NCBI GenBank assembly: GCA_022539475.1 | Contig: VCMS01000029.1 | Location: forward strand, 1-64,000 | Source of the DNA: Gracilaria domingensis | Taxonomy: Eukaryota > Rhodophyta > Florideophyceae > Gracilariales > Gracilariaceae | Length of the DNA stretch: 64,000 bases | Reading direction: 5' to 3' | Shown: piece by piece, positions 2,700 to 58,400 of the stretch | Layout of the letters: each line of letters starts with the position of its first letter | Position numbering within the stretch: the stretch's first letter is position 1 | Position numbers and translations under genes: made by a program | Notes under the pieces: model-generated | Databases searched by the model: none | What the model saw: the letters and a program-made list of their open reading frames with translations, nothing else | What the model was told of the DNA's origin: nothing

Positions 2700-5600
2700 T
2701 TCTCAGCTCACGTCCTGGCGCGCCTGCTACCGGCGCTGGTCACAACGCTCTCTACGCCGTCCGCTGCCGCGTGCGGTGGGTGCCTGCACCAAAGGCGCGC
2801 CGCTCCTCCGCGACGCGCTGCGCGCCATCGGCTACACCGCGCTGTTCTACCTAGCGCTGCGCATCCCGTCGCTGCTACTGGCCGACCCCACAGCCGCCCC
2901 GCGCTTCTCCTCCAGCGCGAGCGCGCTGGCGCCCCCGCCGCCCGTGCGCACCGCCGCCGAGTAGGCGCTCGTCACGCCTGTCGCTTTTCGTGTCGCTGAG
3001 CACGGGCGACTCGTCGCCATTTCGCGCCGCCGCGCTGGGCGCGCTCATGCCCGCCATGCTCGACGCGCGCCCGCTGTGAGAGCCGGCGTGCGCCACCGCC
3101 GTACACTGGGCTGAAGACATCTTCTCCTTAGCTGACACGCACGCGCGCCTTATCGAAGTCCTCGCCGCCTCCAACGCCAGCCCACGCGTCATGCAACTCG
3201 CCGCTGCCGGGATGCGCCGGCGCAAACTCGCGCGCCACGCCGCGCTAGCGCGCGGGAGCCACCCCCGCCGCTTGCGCCCATTATCGCAGTGTACGGAGCG
3301 CATTGCGAGCGCCACTAGCCGCGTAGCTGCTCCGTGCGGCATATCTGCTGTTTGCGCTGGCGCTGCCTAGTGCAGCAGCTCGCGCCGGCACGCCGGTTGC
3401 AGCTGCTGCCCGCCGCCAATCTGCACGTGCTGTTGCGCGCCGACGCGGACGCGTTGCACGCGCTGTGAGCCGCGCTGAGCACCGCGCAGCAGTGGCTGTT
3501 GCAGCCGCGCTGGCGGTGGTGCTGCTGGCTTCGAACGCGCCCCCGCTGGGCGAGCAGGTGGCACGCGCGCTAACGGCATGAGCTGCAAGACTTGTTCTCG
3601 CTCATTGCCCCCCAGTCTGCCTTGGGAGATGTATTTGTGCGCTTCTCGTCGCCGTCTGCTGCGACGCGCTCTCCAATATCGTATACTTCCCCCAAGGGTC
3701 AGCAAGATATTGTTGGAAACCTCGTCCGGTCTCTGACCGCCGGCGAGCGGGCTGCGGTGATCGTCCCGGGCAATCAAGGAGTGTTTCTCGAGTTCAGCGG
3801 CGTGGAAGTGGAATCAAACACGGCTGACGCGCGCTCTGGTACCAACGAGGAGCTCTGTAGTCCGGCTCAAGACATGGGTCAACCTGGAACAGTCGCAAGC
3901 GCGCAGCACTGGCAGTTCCCTCTTGAATAATGATCATCATTGATATGATATCGCCGCCGAACAGCTTCGACTGCACGTGAAGAGTCTTTTGCTGCGCTTG
4001 TATGTGTACTGCCATCACCCGATATAGAGCGTTCGCATTGCTATGCGCTCAATTATATCGCGGTGGTCAAGGCTTCTGGTCACGGCTCAGTGGCCGAGGC
4101 GATCAAGGCGAACTTGCTTGCAGTGACGGACCACTGCATCAAGTCAATCGTTTCCCGGCAATGGCGTTCGCGAGAAGCGGGGTGCGCCGCGCTTCGCGAC
4201 GTTCTTGCCTCCCGCACATGGGAGGAGGTGAAGGACTCTTTAAAGGATTTCTGGTACTACACACTGAGGGCTATGGATGATATGAAGGAAAGTGTGCGAA
4301 AGAGTGCTCAAGGCACTGGAAGGGCACTCTCGGAACTTTCGATATATCTACGTAATCCAAACTATTTGGGTGAAGAGGAATCGGCTCAAGCCGTTGACGT
4401 TGTACTGTCTGTGCTTATGACGTCCTTCACACACAGCGCCGAGGAGGTGAGAGCGCTCGTGTCAAAGACTCTGTCCGAGATCACACGACATGGAGGAACG
4501 GCCTTGCGGTCGTCTGTGCCGGATTTGATCGCGAATCTGTTGGACGTTGCGACAGAGCTCGAGCCGCAAATCTTAAACTACGCGGAGTATCATGTAGCCT
4601 CACCGGAGGAGCTGCAAAACGCTCTGGTCTCTGCAGCGAGTATGTCCTCGTCCTCTTTGATCGAGTCGCTTGAAAGGCTCATAGGGCAAGTTGACGAGAC
4701 AATCGCGGCGGAGGTGGTTCCGAATCTGGCACGATTGGCTCACGTAGGAGTGGGAATTCCTACGCGTGCAGCGACGGCAAGGTTGATGTCGAGCGTTCTG
4801 CAATCCAGAGCAGTGGTCATGGAACCATATGCTGCAAAGCTGCAGTTTTCAGCTGCAAGCGCTGCGGGCATGGAGCGCAATGCAATGCTTCGAAAGGCAT
4901 GGTGCAAGGCCGCTGGCAGAGGTTCAAAGTTGTGCCGCGTCGATGAAGTTGCAAAGTATTGCAAACAAAATTAGCAAGAAGGCCACATCGGAGTATCCTC
5001 GGGATCGCGCGCTTGCCTCGTCTCTCGCTGCTGGGTTGTGTCGGATGGCGCCCGATACGACCCAGCAGCACGCAAGCTCTATACGGCCCTTCGCATACAT
5101 GGGGCGCCCTGAAACAGACGACGACGCAGAAGATGACAGCAAGAACTGGAAAGACGCCTGGAATAAAGGTGCGCCAAGTACTCAGGCCGGGCTTCGTTTG
5201 TACGCAAAGGCGATTGTTGAAGTATGTGAGCAACGGCTATCTACTTCTGCTCAGTACCGCGTGAAAAGGAACGCCGCAGCCACGCTAGGGGACCTCACGA
5301 ACGCTTCAAATGACATTGTCGATGTACAGTACATGTCGCGAAGCGCAAAAACGTTGTTAGCGGTGCTTCCAGGTCATATTTGGAAAGGACAGCATGTTGC
5401 AATTGAGGCCATTGGGTCTTTGGCAGATTTCTGTTCAAGCGCATCTTTGTGGGAGTCGTGCGGAGAGAGCGTAGCTGTTGTGCAGCCTGTGCTGTCCGAA
5501 TTTGATCGAGGGAAGAAGGATTATCGAATTGCAGCAATTGATGCGGCGAGGAAGGTGCTGGTTAACACCCGAGAAACCGTTTGCATGTACGAGAAAGTCA

Positions 5601-6166
5601 GGGACCACTTGCCAGAGCTCGTGTCTCCAAACTCGTCGGATGTAAACGCTAGCGTACCAAATGTGTCACAGATGGTGTGGGAAACTGGGTCTGATGCAGA
5701 TGCTGTTGATGCTTGGAACAAAGCGCGAAAGTCGCAAAAGCTATTGTGCAAAGCAGCGATTCAGTGCCTGCAATCTTCAATCACAGGGGTGGCGGGCGTT
5801 GAGAAGCTAGAAGAACACGTACTTAATTTGCTGTGTGTGTTTGAAGAACTGATGCACAACGATTGGGACATTCGACTAACTGTACTTCAAGCCATTGAGA
5901 AGTTGTCCGAACGTTTCTACAAACATGAACTGCAATTTAGAAACTGCCTGGAGCGCACTGAGGCATTGATTAAACGATAAGTAAACCTCAGCAAAAACGG
6001 CATTCACGAACCCAAGTATAAAGTGCTAAGAAATAGTGGGTTAACAATTCTTGATCACTTGGTCAACGTTTCCAAGGATTCTACGGCAATGAAGGGTGTG
6101 ATTGTAGAAGACACGCTAATTGCGATCCAGAGGTCTCGGAACGAAGATTGCGTTGGCATTTCGTGA
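2700..6166 (+). pseudogene. ECM29: Proteasome adaptor ECM29 (KIAA0368-like), decayed
   Basis: ECM29 is a long HEAT-repeat protein that clamps the 26S proteasome core to its regulatory particle. The best part, 4063-4974, reads REAGCAALRDVLASRTWEEV, then DDMKESVRKSAQGTGRALSE, VRALVSKTLSEITRHGG and LEPQILNYAEYH, matching the ECM29 C-terminal half in order. The frame changes near 4905-4920, and the match goes on to 5980 (ALASSLAAGLCRMAPDTTQQ, YRVKRNAAATLGDLT). After a TAA at 5978-5980 the same frame gives a plausible C-terminus ending at TGA 6164-6166. Upstream, 3592-3930 matches the central region (GQQDIVGNLVRSLTAGERAA, NEELCSPAQDMGQP), and about 3955-4050 reads LRLHVKSLLLRLYVY. The very GC-rich 2700-3590 stretch gives only scattered alanine-rich HEAT-like pieces in several frames. 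No intact start is visible. Confidence 0.85.
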
Positions 6167-34696: not shown

Positions 34697-36104
34697 TCAA
34701 GTGCTGCTCTCTTTTGGACTGGGACCTGCTTTTTCTGTTGTTGAGGAATTAGCTTTCTTCGATTCCTGTACCATTTCTGATTCTGGGAAAAGTTCAAATT
34801 CATCTCCCATGGACACTGTACGGAACTTCCATGTCCGACAATCTCGATCGGCATAGCTCTTACGATTTGAATGCAAAGCATCACGGCCCAAACTTCCTTT
34901 CTTCGATCCCCCACGTTGCACTTGGTTCTGCAAATTCTTTGCTGAACTCTTGTTGTTATTATCTTTCGTACTCTTTCCACAGCTTTTCATGTCTTCTAGT
35001 GAGGCTTTTGGACTTGTCCTCGCATCATTAGTGCTTTGATCCCGTGCAGTGTAGATACGTTCCCGTCGGTCCATGTGCTCAAGGTCGACTACGTAGTCAT
35101 CAGTCAATAGAATACGGTGGCTTATGGCCATGACCGTAGAAAAATGAGCTTGGATACAGAACCATCGAAATCTCTCCATTAGCTTGGGAGAATGGCCTGC
35201 ACAAAAGCGGACCTTCGGAAGATGATCTTTAGTACGCCCAAACAGAGCCATTGTAGAGAGAATGTAAGCTCCACAATTATGCGAGTCGGTCTGCTTAACA
35301 TACCGCAACACGTCTAACATGTAGTTCTCTGTCGCATAGTCCCATGTAATCTGCGTTTCAAGGGCGAACTCGATCATAATTGCTACCAAAGTCCTACACT
35401 TTTCAGGACAATCCCAACCCAGACTATCCCCCCAATGAATGTGCCATGTTGTTTGTTCAATGCGTTTTGCAAATAAAACTCCCCAATGAACTCCTTTGAC
35501 ATTGATTGGTACAAATACCTCAGTACTATCTCCGGGTGCTAGGTAGACGTTTGTCTGTAAATCTTTTCTTGTAGTTTTGAAGAAGCGCAACGTGTTCTGC
35601 ACGACATTGATTATCAAATACATCAGTGTGGTATCCAATTCGACATCCAGAGTCAACAGGAACGTACACTACCGCACACATAGGTTCCATATTGCGAATA
35701 ACAGCACCAAGTAGAGTATTACAGAACCATGCCCGTTTCTCACTAGATGACACCAGATTTGTTCCAATGATTAGGTGATAACACAAACGTCGAAGCTCAC
35801 TGAAACTTCCAGAAGCTCTCCGCTCAAATGTAATTCTAGTGCGCTTCAGGACATTCACTAGAAAAGAAGAAATATGACACACTGTTTTCTTGATACGTTT
35901 GACCTCATTATCCGTAAGATCTCGAAAAGAAGGATCTTCGGATGGATCAAAGTCGTCTGTACGCTTAACGGAGCATAGGTTTTCGTCATATTCGTCTCCC
36001 CATTCTTCATTTCGGGGATCAAGAAAATTGAATATATCATGGTCTTGCAGGTCATCTGGCGGATAGCGTACCGTAGGGTCTGCCGGATTTCGAAATGTCA
36101 ACAT
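34697..36104 (-). pseudogene. Ulp1/C48-type cysteine protease of the MULE-like element
   Basis: Ulp1 proteases process SUMO-like modifiers; MULEs carrying one are known (Kaonashi type). The minus strand has two overlapping frames (36104-35526 and 35656-34697). The second contains NVYLAPGDSTEVFVPINVKG, VHWGVLF (catalytic His), HWGDSLGWDCPE (catalytic Asp), and QTDSHNCGAYILSTMALFG (oxyanion Gln and nucleophile Cys). All four catalytic positions are kept in one frame. The first frame gives an N-terminal acidic region and a helical domain (VKRIKKTVCHISSFLVNVLK). One frame change near 35600 joins them; otherwise this is the best preserved gene of the composite. The C-terminal tail is Lys/Ser-rich (QVQRGGSKKGSLGRDALHSN). 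Confidence 0.8.
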
Positions 36105-42250: not shown

Positions 42251-43028
42251 ATGATAGGTAGACGAAATAAACAAACCAACAACTAATGGTAAACTTCTGA
42301 TAAGTCTTCTTTGCTTCTTCTTCATAGATATTCTTCTTCTTGTTCTTCTTCCTTGAATCTTCACAATGACCGTTATCGGTAAATCTCCTCTTCGACCGCT
42401 TATCGGTAACCTTCATGACCATAATTGATAAACCATTCCATGGTAACTATCCTTCAACTTCATTCGCAAGTTCTTCTTTTTCTTCCCTTCATAGAGCAAC
42501 TTCTTCAAGTTCTTCTTTTTCTCCTTTTCGAGCAACGAGAGTTCTGTTCGCGGGCTACGCGCGTCATCGCTACAGTGGCGTCACTCAGTTTGTGCTTCGC
42601 TGATGTTCGGCGGTAGTGGTGTACCGGGGCGTCGGTGATAGGTAACGATGAACGACCTAGGCAAATGTCTCACAGGTTTTTGGGTGTCTTCCGATGACGG
42701 AAATCCATCTCATAGGACGGGATAAAGCCACTCTCCATTTGAAGCTTGTTCGTAATTCACAAGTTTCTCTACAACGTACAGACTTGGATACACTGCTTGG
42801 TCGGTGGTTGAATTCACCATGCTATCTCCTGACGGAGTTCCAAAGATGATGCGGGTATAAGAGTTCAGCCGTGACGGCGTATTGACTCCTTCAACAACCA
42901 GTAGTGGTTCCACAAGTAAGCGCCGATGTGTCGATTCAACCGTCGTGTTTTTCGGTAATCACAAGTGGTAACTAGCTGAAGAAGTCTTTTGTGAAACAGA
43001 GCGACGAGCTGATCGTCACAAGCCAAAT

Positions 43029-45467
43029 GTGTACGGTTCCACTTCTAAAACTTCTTATTGCGAATTTACGGTACCAGAAGCTGCACAAATCGGCCGAAAG
43101 CTCTCATTAAATAGCGTCGAACAAGCAGAAAACGAAATTAAATGGATGTCCAGGAAAAAAGAAATGGAACCAACCGTCAAAAGCGAGTTTTCTTGCTCCT
43201 AAAATATATGCACTCCATTCCGGAGTTACAAGTGCAAAGAAATACCACATCGCCGCCCGGTCCACGTACTCGGGACCTTTTGAGGCACCATATGCACCAA
43301 AAAGCATCTCTTCGCTGAAATGGATGTTAGTCACCCTCTCTGCGATATCGAATCGCTCCAAGCTACAGATCTCGCCACTGCTAACCAGTAAAGATACTCA
43401 AAACCACGAGACTTAAATGGATCCGACGAAGAGGGACGGCTCCAAGCTGCTCAGGGCTATGTTAGCGAGGATGACTCTCACCCTACATCCGTATTAGATC
43501 GCTTGCCACAGCAGCAGAAGCAGTACGCAGATGCGCACTTCCGGTCTTTCATGGATCGTTGTCGATGTTCAACGCGCTGCGGCTTTGAAGGCGATCGCCA
43601 TCTCTCTTATTCGTTCTCATTAATGAGCGAAACCGAACGAACTCACGCAGTTCGTTGCATTCTTTTAGCACTATCCGCACCACCGGACGCAGCTAACGAG
43701 CAAATGGTCACGCCCGCCTCGTACTCGCAGTCTCGAAAACGCTCACGCAATGCGGCCAAAAAATCTGGAAGAGTTTTCACAAGGTAAGCAATTCGCGGTA
43801 TCTCGTTATGTAGCAATGCCTTCGCTGCGATATTTCAGATGCACCCAAAGACCGTGAGTGACTACAGCAGCGATTTTTTGGTGCACAAAACGTATGAGAA
43901 CAGAAGAAGAAGAGGTTCGCTTTCTGTCCAGTCTCTCATTGCTCTTTATTTTCTTCAAAGATACTCAGATGTAAACGCGATGGATTGTCCCACAGGAAGG
44001 GGCTCTACGGAGGATATGCCTCTAATGTCGCTACCGAGCGCTACAACAATTGCAGCAGTATATGACGGCTACCAACAAGAATGGAAAGCGGTGATGGATG
44101 CGCATTTCGAAGCGACTACATGTTCTCAAAGCAAACCCCAATGTCCTTTAACCCAGAACGCCTTCCGAAAAGTATGGCATGAGCATATGCCAACCTTAAG
44201 GATAATGATATCGGGTAGCGATTTTTGTGATACATGTACGACTCTGCAGAATGAAGCTAACCTTGTTTCGAACATAACGACCCGGAGAGCATTGCTCGAG
44301 GCTAGAACGAAGCATAGAGCAGAGGCGGCGCACGAATTTAAAAATTATAAGACCATCCAAGCAGACGCCCACGGTCAGGAGAGCCCTCTCCACATCGTAT
44401 TTGATTTTGCCGAGAAGATTCTTTTGCCACACTTAATTCGGCAGCCAGGCCAATTTCATTTTGTTACACGGCTGAAGTTTGCCTTTTTCGGCAGTCATGT
44501 GAGCCATACTGGAATCACGGATATCTACGGGCTTCCCGAAGGCCATTGGCCACGCCATAAGACTGCGAGTAAGGTATGCTCTATGATATGAGATACGATA
44601 AAGGTTTACAACGAACTCAGGGATTCAGTTCGAAGCATTCGACTTCACGCTGACAACGGCAGCGGACAGAACAAAAATCGATGTGTTCTTTTTTATCTTC
44701 TATGGAGAGTGATTATGGGATATGAAAATTCTATTGTACTGCAGTTTCTGGTTGCTGGTCACATGAAAATCGTCTGTGACGGTTCGTTTGGATTGGTGAA
44801 GAGGCGTTTGAAGCAGCGAAATGTTTTTTCTCCATCCGACATGATGAAGGCGACTGATAGTAGTTCTTCTATGAATCACGTCGTTTGCGGGAGTATTATT
44901 GACTGGATTAACTGGAAGGACGTTTTGTGTGGTTTCTTTAATGTTCCGAGTTCTTTTCGGATTACAAAGTACCATGTATTCGAGTTTCCTGTAGACGATC
45001 CTGGGTTGGTCACTGTAGAAGCGTTCTCGAACAGTTGCCAGGGGTCAAAAGTTAAGCTGTTGAAGAGAGGAACTACGCTTGAAGCTTTCCGAACTGCTTC
45101 GTCGCAGTCCAGCTTGCGCAATTTCAAATGCATTCCTGCAAAACTGAAAGACGTACCGTCGCCTCAGGAGAGGAATAGAGAGAGTTATCTCGTTAAGAAT
45201 ATACTGGATCGCTACTATCCGCACAACGCGTAGCTTCGCTCTTCTTATTTCGATAGCGGAGCTAATTGGATCGAAGGGCCTTAACTTGTTTTGGGCATAT
45301 CTCCGCAACGCTTGTGCCAATTTGAGTGGTCTAAAGTTTCTCTTGTTGCGTTAGACATGGTTTAGGGAAGTCGTTCCGAGGCCCACATCGGTCCAGGAAC
45401 AGTATTTTGCGTCTTTCTCCAGTTCTGCGTATTCCCAGTAAGGAGTAATAAAAGTGGAACGACACAC
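43029..45467 (+). mobile_element. 2.44-kb DNA transposon, unusual DDE type (Sola-like?)
   Basis: Ends are inverted repeats: left GTGTACGGTTCCACTTCTA, right (read inward on the other strand) GTGTGTCGTTCCACTTTTA, 15 of 19 matching. It is flanked by AAAT on both sides (43025-43028 and 45468-45471). The second copy of repeat R has the uninterrupted site with a single AAAT (51125-51128), which proves the insertion and fixes both ends. One gene fills the middle (43503-45233). A 4-bp duplication fits Sola- or Ginger-like superfamilies among others; the protein argues for Sola-like, but this is inference. Confidence 0.9.
43503..45233 (+). CDS. Putative transposase with DNGSGQNKN motif (two in-frame stops)
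   Basis: One reading frame of 577 codons, interrupted only by TAA at 43785-43787 and TGA at 44589-44591. In order: a Cys/Arg-containing N-terminus (FMDRCRCSTRCGFEGDRHLS), a basic stretch (SQSRKRSRNAAKKSGR), a helical domain (SLSVQSLIALYFLQRYSDVN), a C-x(2)-C knuckle SDFCDTC near residue 240, and a strand IVFDFAEKILLPHL near 300 with a candidate first Asp. LHADNGSGQNKNRCVLF near 380 holds the second Asp. VAGHMKIVCDGSFGLVKRRL follows, then a C-terminal region with SQSSLRNFKCIPAKL. The HADN-SGQNKN / GH-K...D--FGL-KR pattern belongs to a widespread, poorly studied group of eukaryotic proteins that I take to be RNase H-fold transposases. A GT...AG pair at 43784-43838 would remove the first stop but shift the frame. 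Confidence 0.75.
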
Positions 45468-45975
45468 AAATTTCATACGAATTGGACAACGTAGTGCGAA
45501 GTTATCGCATTTCGAACACGAGTATCCCTGTCGATATCACGGGAGTTGACCGTTCTGACGGTAGAGCTCGACGGTTACGCACCGTGTTGCCTACAAGTGC
45601 AAAGCATTTCCATTGGTTGGAACACCACACACGTGGCTCTTTGCAAATGATTCCTATTGTGGGAACAACTGCCAAGTGGCCATGTGCACTTCCAAACGTT
45701 TCTGCTGTGCCACACCATCTAATTGGTTTGTCCATCTGCCACGTGGAAGTGTGCAACCCATTTTCATTGGTAGTGCACTCAATGTACATCGGACATGATT
45801 TCTGACACGTGTGTGTGTGCAAACGAATCCCATTGGTTGGGCAACACACCAAGTGTCCTCGTGCCACGCATCTCATGGGGGTGGGCAACGGCGGCATCGT
45901 AATGCATCAAAAATATGCCGAATTGGCCGATTTTCATTGCGCAATGCGCTTGTTCCAAACGGACAAGACCGTTCA

Positions 45976-49870: not shown

Positions 49871-50398
49871 TGTGTTTCCATTGAATGAGGTCGTAGTTTG
49901 TCCTTTCGCCTGCTAAAAGCTGGCGGACTACTTCTACCGCAGCGTATTTGTTGTTAATCCGAAGAAGTGATCGTTTCGGACCAGAAGCTGATGCGCTTTT
50001 CGTTTTGATATTCTTGTGGTTTCCATAAAATATGGTAGAGTTAGGCGGTAGCCGTCGGTGAGAAAAATAGGAATCCGGCGGATGCCGATGGTGAGGATGT
50101 ACTAGTTATCAGCGAAAACTTGAAAGGGTTTTGATTGTGGATTTTGATGGTACTAATCCGCGAACGGATTCTTTCTGATGGATCGAATTCAGTGATCCGC
50201 TGGTATCAGCAAACGACAAAAGGGGTTGTTGTTCACAGTTCTATTTGACGCCGGATATACCACTAAATAGTGTACAATGCGTTCGGAACTAATTGGAAAT
50301 GTATTTCAACTTTTAATTACAGAGTTTTGGTTTCGCTGTTACAGGCTTCAAACGTGACGGGCATGTTCGAACGGCTAGCCGTCCAGATACAACGCTAC
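49871..50398. other. 5' flank of the hAT element, no gene recognised
   Basis: Contains a loose duplication GGTAGCCGTCGGTGAG / GGATGCCGATGGTGAG (50046-50094). No coding signal; hAT 5' end expected here but not found. Confidence 0.35.
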
Positions 50399-52050
50399 TT
50401 CTGATAAGTCTTCGTTTGATTCTTCTTCGTAGATCTTCTTCTTCTTGTTCTTCGCTGAATCTTCATGATGACCGTTATCGGTAAATCTTCTCTTCAACCG
50501 TTTATCGGTAATCTTCATGACCATAATTGGTAAACCATTCTATGGTAACTATCCCTCAACTTCATTCGCAAGTTCTTCTTTTTCTTCTCTGCATAGAGCA
50601 ACTTCTTCAAGTTCTTCTTCTTCTCCTTCTCGAGCAACGAGAGCTTCCTTTACGGGCTAGGCGTTATCGCTACACTAGCGTCACCCAGTTTGGGCTTCGC
50701 CGATGTTGGTCGGTAGTGGTGTACCGCTGCGTCGGTGATAGTGAACAATGAAAGACCTGGGCAGGTGTCTCAAAGGTTCGTGGGTGTCTTCCGATGACGG
50801 AAATCCATACCATGGCACGGGATAAAGCCACTCTCCATTTGGAGCTTGTTTGTAACTCACAAGTTTCTCTACAACGCACACACGTGGATACACTACTTGG
50901 TCGGTCGTTGACTTAACCATACTGTTTCCTGACGGAGTTCTCAAGATGATACGGGTAAAAGGGTCCAGCAGTGACGGAGTATTGACTCCTTCCACAACCA
51001 GTAGTGGTTCCACAATTAAGCGTCGATGTGTCGATTCAACCGTCGTGTTGTTCGGTAATAACAAGTGAAAATTAGCCGAACAAGTATTTCGTGAAAGAAG
51101 ACGACGAGCTGATCGTCACAAGCCAAATTTAATACGAATTGGACAACGTATTGCGAAGTTATCGCATTTCGAACACGAGTATCCCTGTCGATATCACGGG
51201 AGTTGACCGTTCTGACGGTAGAGCTCGACGGTTACGCACCGTGTTGCCTACAAGTGCAAAGCATTTCCATTGGTTGGAACACCACACACGTGGCTCTTTG
51301 TAAATGATTCCTATTGTGGGAACAACTGCCAAGTGGCCATGTGCACTTCCAAACGTTTCTGCTGTGCAACACCATCTAATTGGTTTGTCCATCTGCCACG
51401 TGGAAGTGTGCAACCCATTTTCATTGGTAGTGCACTCAATGTACATCGGACATGATTTCTGACACGTGTGTGTGTGCAAACGAATCCCATTGGTTGGGCA
51501 ACACACCAAGTGTCCTTGTGCCACACCGCTCGTTCCCAGTGGGAATCTGAGATATAGAATTGGTATTGGTTGGATATCTCCACACGAAGTACCTACAATA
51601 TAGGCATGACAAAGAACTGATATGGAGAGGATTCAGTTATGGAACATGTTCGAGAGTGTTCAGTATCCCTGTGATATAAATGTGGTATAGCTGTGACAGT
51701 CTGACGTTCCGGTTTCCTACAGGTTCGATATGAACTTAATATATTTCGAAATCTTCGGTTTCAAAACTAGTTCGAAAATGTTTGAGAACTTTACCTGTAT
51801 TATATCAGGACCTTGCGTGAGACTCATGCAAATATGGTCTCGAAAAGAGCATTATATCAGAATCATATCAGAACTGCATTCCATCCTTAACTAATCTGCG
51901 GGATTTATATGAAACTTATATCTAAACCATATCTCAAATTTCCACTTGGCGTTGCGGTGGCTAACGGCGGCACCGTAATGCATCAAAAAATGCCAAAAAC
52001 TGGCCGATTTCCATTGCGCAATGCGCCTTTTCCAAACGAAGAAGACCGTT
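50399..52050 (-). repeat. Repeat R, copy 2 (holds a MITE; empty transposon site)
   Basis: Second copy of R. It has the uninterrupted site (AGCCAAATTTAATACG, 51121-51136) where copy 1 carries the 2.44-kb transposon. It is itself interrupted at 51535-51949 by a MITE that copy 1 lacks. Open minus-strand frames 51064-50681 (127 residues) and 51524-51159 (121 residues) are conserved between copies at protein level. Degenerate 45-65 bp units with CATTGGTTGG and CACGTG-like motifs occupy 51255-51515. Confidence 0.8.
51535..51949. mobile_element. GATATC-rich MITE, 415 bp (copy C)
   Basis: Ends are inverted repeats CCCAGTGGGAATCTGAGATA and CCAAGTGGAAATTTGAGATA. Flanked by CGTT on both sides (51531-51534 and 51950-51953). 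Copy 1 of repeat R aligns without a gap across the site once the insertion and one CGTT are removed, so the ends are exact. Non-coding, rich in ATATC/GATAT motifs like copies A and B in the MULE-like element. Confidence 0.85.
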
Positions 52051-52429: not shown

Positions 52430-55400
52430 GATACCGATGCGGTAACAATCTCGGGTGGTGGAAGTACACGGGCGTGTGGATCCACAGGATTCTCTAACAG
52501 AGTAGATGAAGAATTAGCTGACTGCTGTAGGAAATCAGTCAAGCCTCGATCTAGATGTGGAACTGTAGCGGGCCGTGGCGGCGAGGTAACTTCAGTTTCA
52601 ATTGAATCACCCTGTGGAGGTACAGTGACAGTTTCCACTGTAGAATTGGGAGTAACAGTGACGCGATCGCGTGACAGCCATTCATGAAGGCCATTGATAT
52701 CCAGTACGACAGTGTCCGTTCAGGTGTAAATTAGCTTATAAGGTCCCTCAGCAATAGGAGAGAGTTTAGGCTTTGGTTCCTTTTCAGGTTTGTGATATTC
52801 CTTACGGACAAAAACAAGGTCGCCAGGATTAAGAACCGGTGGTAACGGCGTACGAATTCGCTTGTCAAAGTTAGCATTGTAGGCCGCTTGAGCTTTAGCC
52901 ATAGCTTTCCGAGCGACCGGAACAATCTTTTCTAACCAGGCCTTCCAAGTATCCCGATATAACCGGTGTGAAGGGAACGTGCCCAACTTGGGTTGAGACT
53001 CGATAGCGATCGGAGGCGGTATCCTCGATAGTACGAGCTCAAATGGGGAAAAACTGGTAACAAGGGGGACCTGTGTGTTGTAGGCATACGTAATAGTGTT
53101 TGTGAAAAAGTCATAATTCTTAGGGTGATCCGATACATAGGATCTTAATGCGTTAAGCATCGTACGGTTGAACCGTTCAACTTGACCGTTTCCTTGGAGA
53201 TGATAAGTAGTGGTAAACAGATTCCTGACATCAAGGATACGGCAGACGTCTTGAAGGGATTTCGAAGCGAATTGTCCTCCATTGTCGGATAGAACCTGAA
53301 CAGATGGGCGGTAAACAAAAATCCAATTCTGAACGAACGCTTGCGCTATCGTCGTTGCAGTGATTGTCCTTGAAGGAACTGTACGAACCAATTTAGAGAA
53401 CCTGTTGGTAATAACCAAAAGAAAACGATGACCGAGAGTGGTACGAAGTAGCGATCCGAGAATGTCAATCGCCACGAACTCTAGTGCAGTCCTTGCAGAA
53501 AAAAGCGTGAGCTTCTTCGAGTATTTCCGGAGACGGACATTGTTCTTCGTGAATTCCATACAACCACGGCGAACTGCGTAGCAGTCTACTGCAATTGCGG
53601 GCCAATAGAAATCTCTGCATAGAGTCAAATACAACTTCCTTCCACCAGGATGAGCACCCAGTTTCACATAATGTGACAGATGTAAACCTCTCTGTTGTAG
53701 AGTATGAGGTACCACGATCTGTGGATGTTCCTTATTAGCGAAACGAACCAAATAACCTTGGTCATTCATAGCGAACGGGATCCCAAAAAGCCCATGGAGG
53801 CGAGAGCGTATCTGCGTACAGAACGGATCGGACATCTGCTCTCTGATCATCTCCTCAGGAGTAGTACGAGCAAAAGAACCGGACGGGGGTTCCGTGGATT
53901 CGGTAACGAATAAATCGCCACATACGGCATCATCTATCCTCTCGATCAAACCATCCTTGGTCATAACCATAAAACACGGTATCTCTAAGCCTTCCGTGGC
54001 GGACGTATAAGCGTTAGTCCCTATACGAGAAAGGGCATCTCCTTGGCAGTTCAGGAAACCTTTCTTATAGTGAACTTCGAAGTCGAATTCCGCTAAACAG
54101 AGACGCCAGCGTATTAACCTGCCAGAGGGTTCCGATATTCCGAGGAGCCAACGGAGAGCCGAATGGTCGGTATGCGCCACGAAGTGAGTACCCATTAATT
54201 AGCGTCGCAGTATGTTCAAGACCCAGACGACCGTTAAACATTCCTTCTCAGATACTGAGTAGTTCTCCTCATGAACATTCAGTGTCCTTGAACAATAGCC
54301 GACGAGTCTACGAGTTCCGTCTTACAAGGTTTGGAACAAAGCGCAACCAACTTGGTAGGCACTAGCGTCTGTGTCAACTGAATATGGCAAACCAGGAATT
54401 GGTAAAGCCAAAACTGGTGGTGACGTTACAGCGTCCACAAGGGACTGAAATGCGGAAGCTTCCGCTTCCCTGAAGGGTTCCAGCTCAACTGGCCTGCCCT
54501 TCTTCAAAAGCTTGTTAAGAGGAGCCGAGATCTCAGCAAAATTAGGAACGAATCTACGATACACGTTACAAAGTCGGAGAAAAGAACGGATTTCAGTTTG
54601 ATTCGTCAGATGCTTGGCTTCCTTCAAGGACTTCACACGAACTTCCTCAATCGAAAGCTTTCTGGGACGGATCGTATTTGCCAAGATCCTGAACGGAATC
54701 GGTGAGAAACTCGCACTTCATCAACTTCAGAGTTATTCCGGCGTCGTCGAGAACCCGCATGATTTCTCGCACATGAGACAAATGATCATCCATGTTGTTT
54801 GAAAAGATGATGATGTCATCAAGGTATACCAAACAGGTCTTCCATTTGTATGGAGCCAGTAGAATGTCCAACGCTCTTTAGAACGTAGCGGGTGCGTTTT
54901 TGAGCCCAAAAGACATTCGTTTGAAACGATACAAGTCTTGGTGGCACACGAAATCGGTTTTGTCACGGTCTTCCTTGCGGATAGGAAATTTCCAATATCC
55001 CCGATTGGCGTCGAGGGCCGTGAAAACCTGAGCACTCCCGAGTGAGTCAATGCATTTGTCTATTCGTGGAATCAGATAAACTTCCTTAACTGTGACCGAA
55101 TTGAGGCGACGATAATCAATACAGAATCGCCACGATCCGTCCTTCTTAGGAGCGAGTACTGCCGCTGATGCCCACGGGGATTGGGCCGGTTCGAGGACTC
55201 CAGCCTTTAGCATCTTCTCAACTTGAGCTTCGTCTTCTTCCTTAGACCTAGAGCCAGCCCTATAAGGGTGTTGCGCTATCGGCAGAGTGTTCGGAAGCAG
55301 ATCAATTCTGTGCTCAGTAATCGAGATCTTCCCTAGGAAACCGTCCCACAACGAGGTAAGTTCCCTCAACATATCACGCAATTTCTCACGATGAGTATCT

Positions 55401-58400
55401 CTTACATGTTCCAGATTCAAGTCTTCCAATTTCTTAACAGGATCCTTCTGTTTTTGTCTAGGGGAACTAGCCTTTGCCTCAGGCTGTAATGATGCGTTCG
55501 GCGTACCGACATCCGAAACGGTTGCAATTATCTCCTCTTCCTCCTTCTCAGGTTGTTGTACGCCGGGAACATCGGCGAGGGTAACCTTCGTAGGTACTAA
55601 AGTGGCTGGATGCGGCATTACTGAACCAATAACCTGGTGTTTGGTTAACCATTGAGGTTTAGGCCCCAAAGTGGCTATCAAAAGCTTGAATGGCTTCTGA
55701 GGTTCAATATGAACAACTCCATTAGCGAGAGCAAGGCGACGAGAATCATACGATGATTATATAAGTTGCATGACACGTAAAACATGCTGGTCCGAGCTCA
55801 CAGTGACCCAAGTCTTGGATTCTGCAGGAATCGAAATTGAACGGGCGCACCGTAAAAGAGTAGAACTTCTATCCATATTTCGATTATCCTGTGCAGCAGG
55901 GAGAGGAACTTGACACTTGAAAGCTTGCCGGAGCAGCTTCCGAACAATTGGTATGGTTGAACCATCTTCCATCTCCACACATTTGGAACGCGGACGAATC
56001 GCTTCGACAAACCTTTCGCAAAAGTCGCAGCCCAAAATAACCGGAGCAGCTAACGATTCGCATACGAGAAATTCAAATTGGACTGTACATTGGCAGAGCC
56101 GAACCATCAGGTCAACGAAGCCTTCTGTCCGTAACGGCTTATTGTTTGCATCGGCAATATCCAGCGATGGACCTTGACGAATAAACGGCCGTAACGAGGC
56201 AAGTAACAACGATTTAACCAAAAGGTTAGAACCAGCTCCTGTATCTAGAACAGATAACTGTCGAACCATAAACTGATTAGAGAAGCCAAGGTCAGCGTAA
56301 ACCTTGTAGTTACGCTTGGCCATGACCATAACCCGATCCGGGACACGACGATTTCTGTACCTCACCCACGGTCGACGCAGGACACCAAAGTGTCTCGAGT
56401 TAACGTTGGAATGAGCCGAGTTCCTAGTAAGGACCTTGACTGGAGAGCGAGGCGATGACGCCTCGGGCGCCAGACTCCTCGACTCTGTCGGCGCCCCTCC
56501 TTTCGGGGAGATTCCCAAAATTAGTTTTTCGAAGGCGAATCCACCAAAGCGGTTTTGCCTCCGTGTGAAGACTAAAGGACCTCAGAGGTTTGAGCTCCTT
56601 GAGATACCGGCGCCTGGTTGGAGCCCGATGCAACGGTATTAGGCAAGAACAGCGAACGGATCTGTTTGTAAGACAAACTCGGAACGCGCGCACGTTCTTC
56701 TTCCCTAAGGGACTCATAAGCTTCGATAATCTTCGACATATCTTTCAGATTGAACTGAAAGCGGGTCGAAACATGACCACGATGGTAGCAAACATGGCAG
56801 ATAAGCGTTGACCTATCGAAGGGTGGACGGGTATCCGTACGGTTCCCCATCCGATGTTGCGGAGTAGTGTTATCCCGCCAACCGGGTTTACTGCAACGTG
56901 TGGTGTTGTTGGCGTACCGGACCTTCGGTGGTACAACCTGTGTTCCTACGTACAGAACTGGGTCTTCTTCAGAAGAAATTAAAGTTGACGGAAACTCCGT
57001 ACTAAGCAAGGGCTGTCTGCCCTGGTTTTGAGCCAAATGAACATTATCCACACCTGGGTTTTCCGTAGAATGTTGGACTAACCAGAGTGATGGAGAGTTC
57101 TCCGCGTGAAGTACCCTAGAAAACCGATGCTTTGGGTGTTGGCGAGCTCGTAAGGCATCTCCCTCTGCCTAGGCGAACTGAACCAGTTCTAAGTAGGTTG
57201 CCTTCCTGTCAGATTTCCGATACCGGGACACAAGTGTCCTGATGGCAGGATCTAAACCATCGCAAAACAAAGCGCATCGCTCATGGTGAGAACACACATA
57301 TCCACAACGATGGAAAGCCTTTTTGAGGCCAGTCGAATAAAGCGTTTCCGTTTCTCCAGATTTCTGTTTTGTATCACGTAAAGCCAAGATGGCAGACTGG
57401 ATCGCAGTAGCCGTGGCGTACGACCTCAGAAGGTATTGAGCAGCTTCCGGCAAACAAATTACACCTCCCTTCCTGGTAATCATTTGGGTGGGATATGGAC
57501 TATCTGTGCGTCACAAAAGGGTTCAAGTGTCTGCTATGTGGCTGTTATGGGCGAAAAACTGATGTATGCTGTACGTGTATCGTATCTTTGCCGTGCCCAT
57601 GGTGGGTTTATGGATGGTATTCGCACACAACAGGCAGAGTGCAAATCTCAAAAAATTACGTTTCTTTATTCCGTTACGTCTGCCATCATCCGTCATGCAC
57701 CAGGCACTCATACGGCACATATGCGACGCAGATACTACTTATATACGACATTGTGCCAAACATGGCACAGAGTAGGCACCTGACCCTCCATATCAGACAT
57801 GGAGCGTACATACACCACCTAAATGTTCCCCTGGGCCCTCCGAGGCACGAGAAACTCCCATGACGGAGCGAAACTAATCTTCAGCCATTCCTTTAAGGAA
57901 ATACAGTAGTGCCACGAAAGCCTGGGCTTCACTCATCATGAGTATGTCGGCTTCCGATACGAAACGGGGGAGAAAGTCCAGTACCAAAATTGGGTTTTCA
58001 CCACTGAAACAGTGTTCCTTCAGCGTGAGGTCCATCCTCTCGATACAGTCCTTCACACGATCTGTCCCACGGAGAGTACGATCAAGGGACGCATCATCTA
58101 AGCGATAATATCGATACGATAACAGTTTCCGAAACAGGATTTTAGATGGCTTCAACTCTTTGAGTCAAATGTGCTTCCTACCCTTCTCGCGGGTCATGAT
58201 GGTGCTGTGCACAGCATAAGTAACCTTAGACCGTGTCGGTCGTTCGCGGCGGTCACGATATCCATCATTGCACGAGTCAGATGACGAAGTAGTAGAACTG
58301 TCCGAGTCGGAGTCAGAACGAAGCAAACGGTCTTCATACGTAGTTGGTCGGTCCTTTCGGAACTTCTTTGAAGAATGATGGATTGAAACCCGAGGGCGGG

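Follow-up and report, generated by a model that had tools for sequence, protein, structure and literature searches.

A broken DNA transposon with a DUF7869 gene in the red alga Gracilaria domingensis and its probable relation to the Sola2 group

The Sola superfamily of DNA transposons, together with its group Sola2, is said to have been described by Bao et al. in 2009. According to PMC10741241, Sola elements encode a DDD transposase, generate 4-bp duplications, are mostly 2-9 kb long and occur in hosts including bacteria and metazoans. The Sola2 elements of two amoebozoans have ends of 12-13 bp and 21 bp and AWWT duplications, given as "ATAT, AAAT, ATTT" in PMC3627910. Here we analysed a stretch of 64,000 nucleotides from Gracilaria domingensis (contig VCMS01000029.1, positions 1 to 64,000; hereafter the window), in which an element of 2439 bp at 43029-45467 carries the remnant of a gene of the DUF7869 family (PF25273). 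The element probably belongs to Sola2.

The feature is a real and complete DNA transposon that is now broken. It starts with GTGT at 43029 (GTGTACGG...) and ends with ACAC at 45467 (...CGACACAC). The original prediction had proposed terminal inverted repeats of 19 bp; such ends are present but imperfect, matching at 15 of the first 19 positions and at 27 of 36. The duplication of AAAT on both sides was found as predicted, and equal 4-mers 2440 bases apart turned up in 0.385% of 20,000 placements drawn at random within the window, where AWWT motifs make up 1.9% of all 4-mers. The element interrupts a repeat, R, whose second copy (50397-51524) was located by alignment within the window. The empty site claimed 8 kb away in this copy could be confirmed as well: it contains an uninterrupted AAAT at a distance of 8.1 kb, and the joined flanks with a single AAAT match positions 51009-51249 with 93% identity over 241 bases without any gap.

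42293-43028, no strand: left portion of the interrupted repeat R, about 88% identical to the second copy (50397-51524)
43025-43028, no strand: left target-site duplication AAAT, read from the sequence
43029-43064, plus strand: left terminal inverted repeat, 36 bp, imperfect, starting with GTGT (27/36 and 15/19 against the right end)
45432-45467, minus strand: right terminal inverted repeat, 36 bp, imperfect, from comparison with the left end
45468-45471, no strand: right target-site duplication AAAT, read from the sequence
45468-45867, no strand: right portion of the interrupted repeat R, 98.75% identical to 51125-51524
51125-51128, no strand: single AAAT of the empty site in the other copy of R, from the joined-flank match

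The gene remnant extends over 43311-45275 in one frame and shares 59% identity with the intact relative L021 over residues 46-704 of the latter (tblastn). Since this homologous stretch contains four in-frame stops (43389, 43785, 44589 and 45231), the window copy is dead. The single frame had been recognised before but with two stops only, because just two of the four fall inside 43503-45233. The C-x(2)-C knuckle (CDTC), FDFAEK and HADNGSGQNKN reported for the protein are all there; the window copy has a G at the position of the HADNC cysteine, which is invariant in our alignments A1, A2 and A4. The profile search proposed for DUF7869-type proteins placed intact relatives above the PF25273 cut-off of 26 bits (frame of L002, 57.9; L021, 65.5; a bacterial relative, L079, 57.5). 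A 174-aa piece of the window copy alone scored 22.9 bits, under the cut-off, and 47.6 bits were reached with the stop read through.

43311-45275, plus strand: remnant of the DUF7869 gene, very probably a transposase gene (tblastn of L021; PF25273 matches to pieces)
44226-44237, plus strand: CxxC knuckle (CDTC), both cysteines invariant in A1, A2 and A4
44403-44405, plus strand: first catalytic-type aspartate (FDFAEK), invariant in A1 and A4, at least 90% in A2
44652-44654, plus strand: second catalytic-type aspartate (HADN), invariant in A1, A2 and A4
44778-44780, plus strand: third catalytic-type aspartate (CDGSFG), invariant in A4, at least 90% in A1 and A2

Further copies were sought in the 77.9-Mb assembly of 680 contigs. 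A DNA search with the window element gave 18 matches, namely the window itself, two near-full relatives (91% and 88%) and 15 shorter pieces. In a protein search, for which an unaltered 364-aa frame from one of these matches served as the query, 68 pieces matched, and 30 loci were retrieved. An end-motif scan, measured ends and a partner search detected both ends at 13 of the 30 loci: L019 (as L002), L020 (as L001, the window copy), L021 to L027, L030, L032, L033 and L043. For 11 of these copies the choice of ends among the motif matches was made with knowledge of the flanks; in L025 and L030 the partner end was found by end similarity and the duplication agreed afterwards. The copies are 2422-2498 bp long, with imperfect 36-bp ends starting with GTG(T/G). 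The proposed tally of duplications gave an exact 4-bp duplication in 13/13 two-ended copies: AAAT, ATAT, ATAT, AAAT, ATAT, ATAT, ATAT, ACAT, ATAT, AATT and ATTT in the 11 copies, ATGT and ATTT in the two from the partner search. Eleven of the 13 are AWWT, the exceptions being ACAT and ATGT. The tie of the gene to ends and duplication, from which the original prediction concluded that this protein group mobilises DNA, is thus repeated in every two-ended copy, and the mobilisation of DNA by the DUF7869 family is well supported by these independent copies.

Gene copies lacking such ends had been named as an outcome speaking against this conclusion, and 17 of the 30 loci did not show two ends within the fetched DNA. 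Four loci, representing three copies (L003 as L037 and L047; L034; L041), possess one end only; the best partner candidates for L003, L034 and L041 match at 18, 21 and 18 of 36 positions, without a duplication. At 13 loci no acceptable end was obtained from this motif within the fetched DNA. We tentatively read the 17 loci as truncated, diverged or cut-off copies.

The end pattern occurs 31 times in the genome compared to twice for the reversed control, and 23 of the 31 matches are found no farther than 3.5 kb from a protein match, such stretches representing roughly 0.5% of the genome. The other eight end-like sequences (C144:201565, C313:10970, C326:64462, C436:23922, C633:5255, C26:294991, C71:134792 and C476:16880) have no DUF7869 match close by and may be non-autonomous derivatives or solo ends. 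Furthermore, a right end of about 320 bp was observed with the same flanks in four copies on different contigs (L006, L007, L008 and L013; C489:51579, C386:34166, C181:161834 and C644:4130), which would fit either the spread of a single insertion through segmental duplication or its repeated assembly.

Near-identical relatives reside at unrelated sites. A comparison over 2440 positions gave 11 differences between L021 and L022 and 26 between L023 and L024; the two members of each pair lie in different flanks, and L021 and L022 carry different duplications. Their open frames comprise 728 aa (L021, L022) and 700 aa (L023, L024). The flanks of 11 two-ended copies are mutually unrelated except for one match of 71 bp at 73%. 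When the joined flanks of 11 copies were searched against the genome, at most 40 places were scored per search, so that the counts are lower bounds. At least 12 uninterrupted counterparts each were found for four of the 11 insertion sites: at least 40 for L022 at 96-98% (best 40 of 534 candidates), at least 22 for the window copy at 78-93%, some with small gaps, and at least 12 for L021 at 79-89% (both among the best 40 of 53 candidates for three sites), and at least 14 for L043 at 87-95% (best 40 of 118 candidates for seven sites). The L002 site had no counterpart among the best 40 of the 53 candidates, nor had those of L023, L024 and L032 among the best 40 of the 118, the queries of L023 and L024 being shortened. 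One counterpart of the L027 site extends 60 bases beyond the junction (best 40 of 118 candidates). The matches of L033 (one) and L026 (13) reach just 30 and 19 bases beyond it and were not counted as empty sites.

In two predicted models of homologues, an RNase H core bears all three conserved aspartates, the first in its first strand and the third close to a helix start in both models. The RNase H fold with D, D and D/E that was to be looked for is thus seen in the models, with D at all three places; a fold without such a core was not encountered. The best 50 structure matches listed for each model are all DDE transposases or retroviral integrases, with 7-14% identity over the aligned parts; the assignment is based on a VIA re-alignment and on the order of the elements. 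Foldseek against PDB and BFVD gave no match at E<=0.001. A sequence search against solved structures returned nothing convincing, the best E values of 0.18 (one protein) and 0.028 (A1) being to a phospholipase and a capsid fusion. The rve integrase core PF00665, the profile used to test for Ginger (Gypsy-integrase-like) elements, was not matched at E<=1 by L002, L021, L035, P0005 or P0090, although the same library detects rve elsewhere in the window. None of the Pfam matches at E<=1 bears a KDZ, hAT, MULE or Academ name, the coverage of each of these families in Pfam being unconfirmed. NCBIfam gave just ahpD for P0005, far under its cut-off, PHROGs gave no match, and none of 36 pattern stretches in viral contigs encodes a relative.

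The best organism-named matches are three proteins of the red alga Gracilariopsis chorda (49-55% identity), which would point to a red algal source, although relatives of a transposon are weak evidence in this respect. In the protein search, animal and red algal DUF7869 proteins are named uncharacterised or hypothetical, and the Pfam description of PF25273 gives neither a function nor a mobile-element label. The term DUF7869 was not found in the literature search, which for GQNKN yielded unrelated papers only.

Among 33 pattern stretches in a prokaryote collection one encodes a relative, L079 of Desulfobacterales bacterium HSG2 (JAUCGI010000018.1), where an intact DUF7869 gene of 659 aa is enclosed by inverted ends (4090 and 6428). 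Across this 5.6-Mb genome the end pattern was matched four times (two around the gene, two elsewhere; control 0); each of the four ends begins with GGGG, and the 4-mer in front of it is ATAT or AAAT. As the outer flanks of L079, ATAT and ATTT, mismatch once, a target-site duplication is not proved. ACGT was rejected as the duplication, being palindromic and inside longer ends common to two other places in the genome. An adjacent GAF frame enters the element by 7 bases and then stops; because the joined flanks do not lengthen it, no broken gene is shown. Three neighbouring frames were tested, matching GAF, a response regulator with a ParA-like ATPase, and nothing, respectively; the two matches are bacterial-type signalling domains. 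The family was detected in no other genome of that phylum (297 genomes searched).

Taken together, the window element is very probably a DDD transposon with the DUF7869 protein as its transposase. Ends, duplications, empty sites, gene association and near-identical relatives at unrelated sites were observed directly. The transposase would be an RNase H-fold DDD enzyme, with a predicted triad D-x82..85-D-x41-D and a CxxC knuckle N-terminal to the core that may take part in its function. It presumably binds the ends of about 36 bp and would cut the element out, by cut-and-paste rather than copying, and join it to AT-rich AWWT sites through cuts staggered by 4 bp, whose repair would leave the 4-bp duplications.

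With respect to classification, the label of a "poorly described DDE type" without an established mobile-element name was probably too strong, as duplication length and sequence, triad, size and hosts fit Sola2. We regard the membership in Sola2 as probable since the testable published features fit, and put it no higher since the comparison was made with the published description. Parts of PMC10294476, PMC10045372 and PMC4455052 contained no Sola2 sequence or motif. That the DUF7869 elements instead form a superfamily of their own apart from Sola1-3, sharing the AT-rich 4-bp duplication by convergence, seems unlikely. Several points speak for it: the likeness to Sola comes from published descriptions; DUF7869 was not found in the literature searched; and neither Sola nor dictyostelid or other amoebozoan names were seen among the matches listed in a length-steered single-sequence search (10) and a profile search (68), both admitting long proteins, although dictyostelid Sola2 elements have been published (PMC3627910). 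This absence is weak evidence, because scoring in the profile search was confined to the 7,988 candidates with the most words in common, and few of the matches bear a name. Against a separate superfamily, the AWWT duplications (ATAT, AAAT, ATTT), the DDD triad, the size of 2.4 kb, the ends, which are short and imperfect, and the occurrence in bacteria and eukaryotes all fit the descriptions of Sola2 and Sola (PMC3627910, PMC10741241). It appears rather doubtful, too, that an ancient superfamily distinct from Sola has DUF7869 proteins as its transposases and extends over algae, animals and one bacterium or more, the preference for AWWT targets being common to the elements of this genome and the bacterial element.

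Some transposons carry passenger genes. The DUF7869 gene might accordingly be a passenger between ends moved by another transposase, and chimeric Sola2-Fanzor elements have been published (PMC3627910). Such an arrangement is very improbable here, since DUF7869 is the only frame of the listed sizes (>=150 or >=250 aa) in the intact two-ended L021, L023 and L032, the same association of gene and ends recurs in subfamilies about 50% identical in DNA and in a bacterium (L079), and the homologues have a predicted DDE fold. Chance or an artefact of repeat R, which the imperfect repeat and low-complexity AAAT of the window copy alone might suggest, is rejected as vanishingly improbable by the further genomic copies, with exact duplications in 13/13 against 0.385% expected per pair and flanks unrelated save for the single 71-bp match.

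As DUF7869 is tied to ends, duplications and empty sites, such proteins would be transposases or derived from them, and their annotations would be corrected. If the assignment to Sola2 is true, the Pfam domain gains a named superfamily; if not, a new superfamily is added. The nearly identical open-frame copies L021, L022, L023 and L024 provide material for an activity test.

Elsewhere in the window, a broken Gypsy-like retrotransposon was detected on the minus strand at 52720-55681. Its matches to the integrase zinc-binding, reverse transcriptase and RNase H domains exceed the respective cut-offs, and that to the integrase core stays below its own. A frame at 34697-35656 has a weak match to the Ulp1 protease (Peptidase_C48), barely over the cut-off; Ulp1 protease genes are often carried by large DNA transposons. 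The sole host-type gene among six frames tested matches the HEAT repeat of the proteasome adapter ECM29 (4063-4974) and is overlapped by a second long frame (4829-5980).

According to the predicted models, the DUF7869 protein resembles the Mos1 mariner transposase and retroviral integrases in its RNase H catalytic core, where the three carboxylates follow one another as in these enzymes. The spacing D-x82..85-D-x41-D differs from the DD34D of Mos1. Mariner elements also differ in their TA duplications (PMC10741241) from the 4-bp AWWT duplications found here. Compared with the amoebozoan Sola2 elements, the ends of about 36 bp starting with GTG(T/G), or GGGG in the bacterium, differ from those of 12-13 and 21 bp in PMC3627910. 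As described in the two papers, Sola2 elements share with the DUF7869 elements the 4-bp duplication (13/13 two-ended copies) and its AWWT sequence (11/13, including the ATAT, AAAT and ATTT of PMC3627910), and Sola elements share the DDD triad, here invariant in A4 and placed on predicted RNase H cores, a size within 2-9 kb with short imperfect inverted ends (here 2422-2498 bp; PMC10741241) and the presence in both bacteria and eukaryotes.
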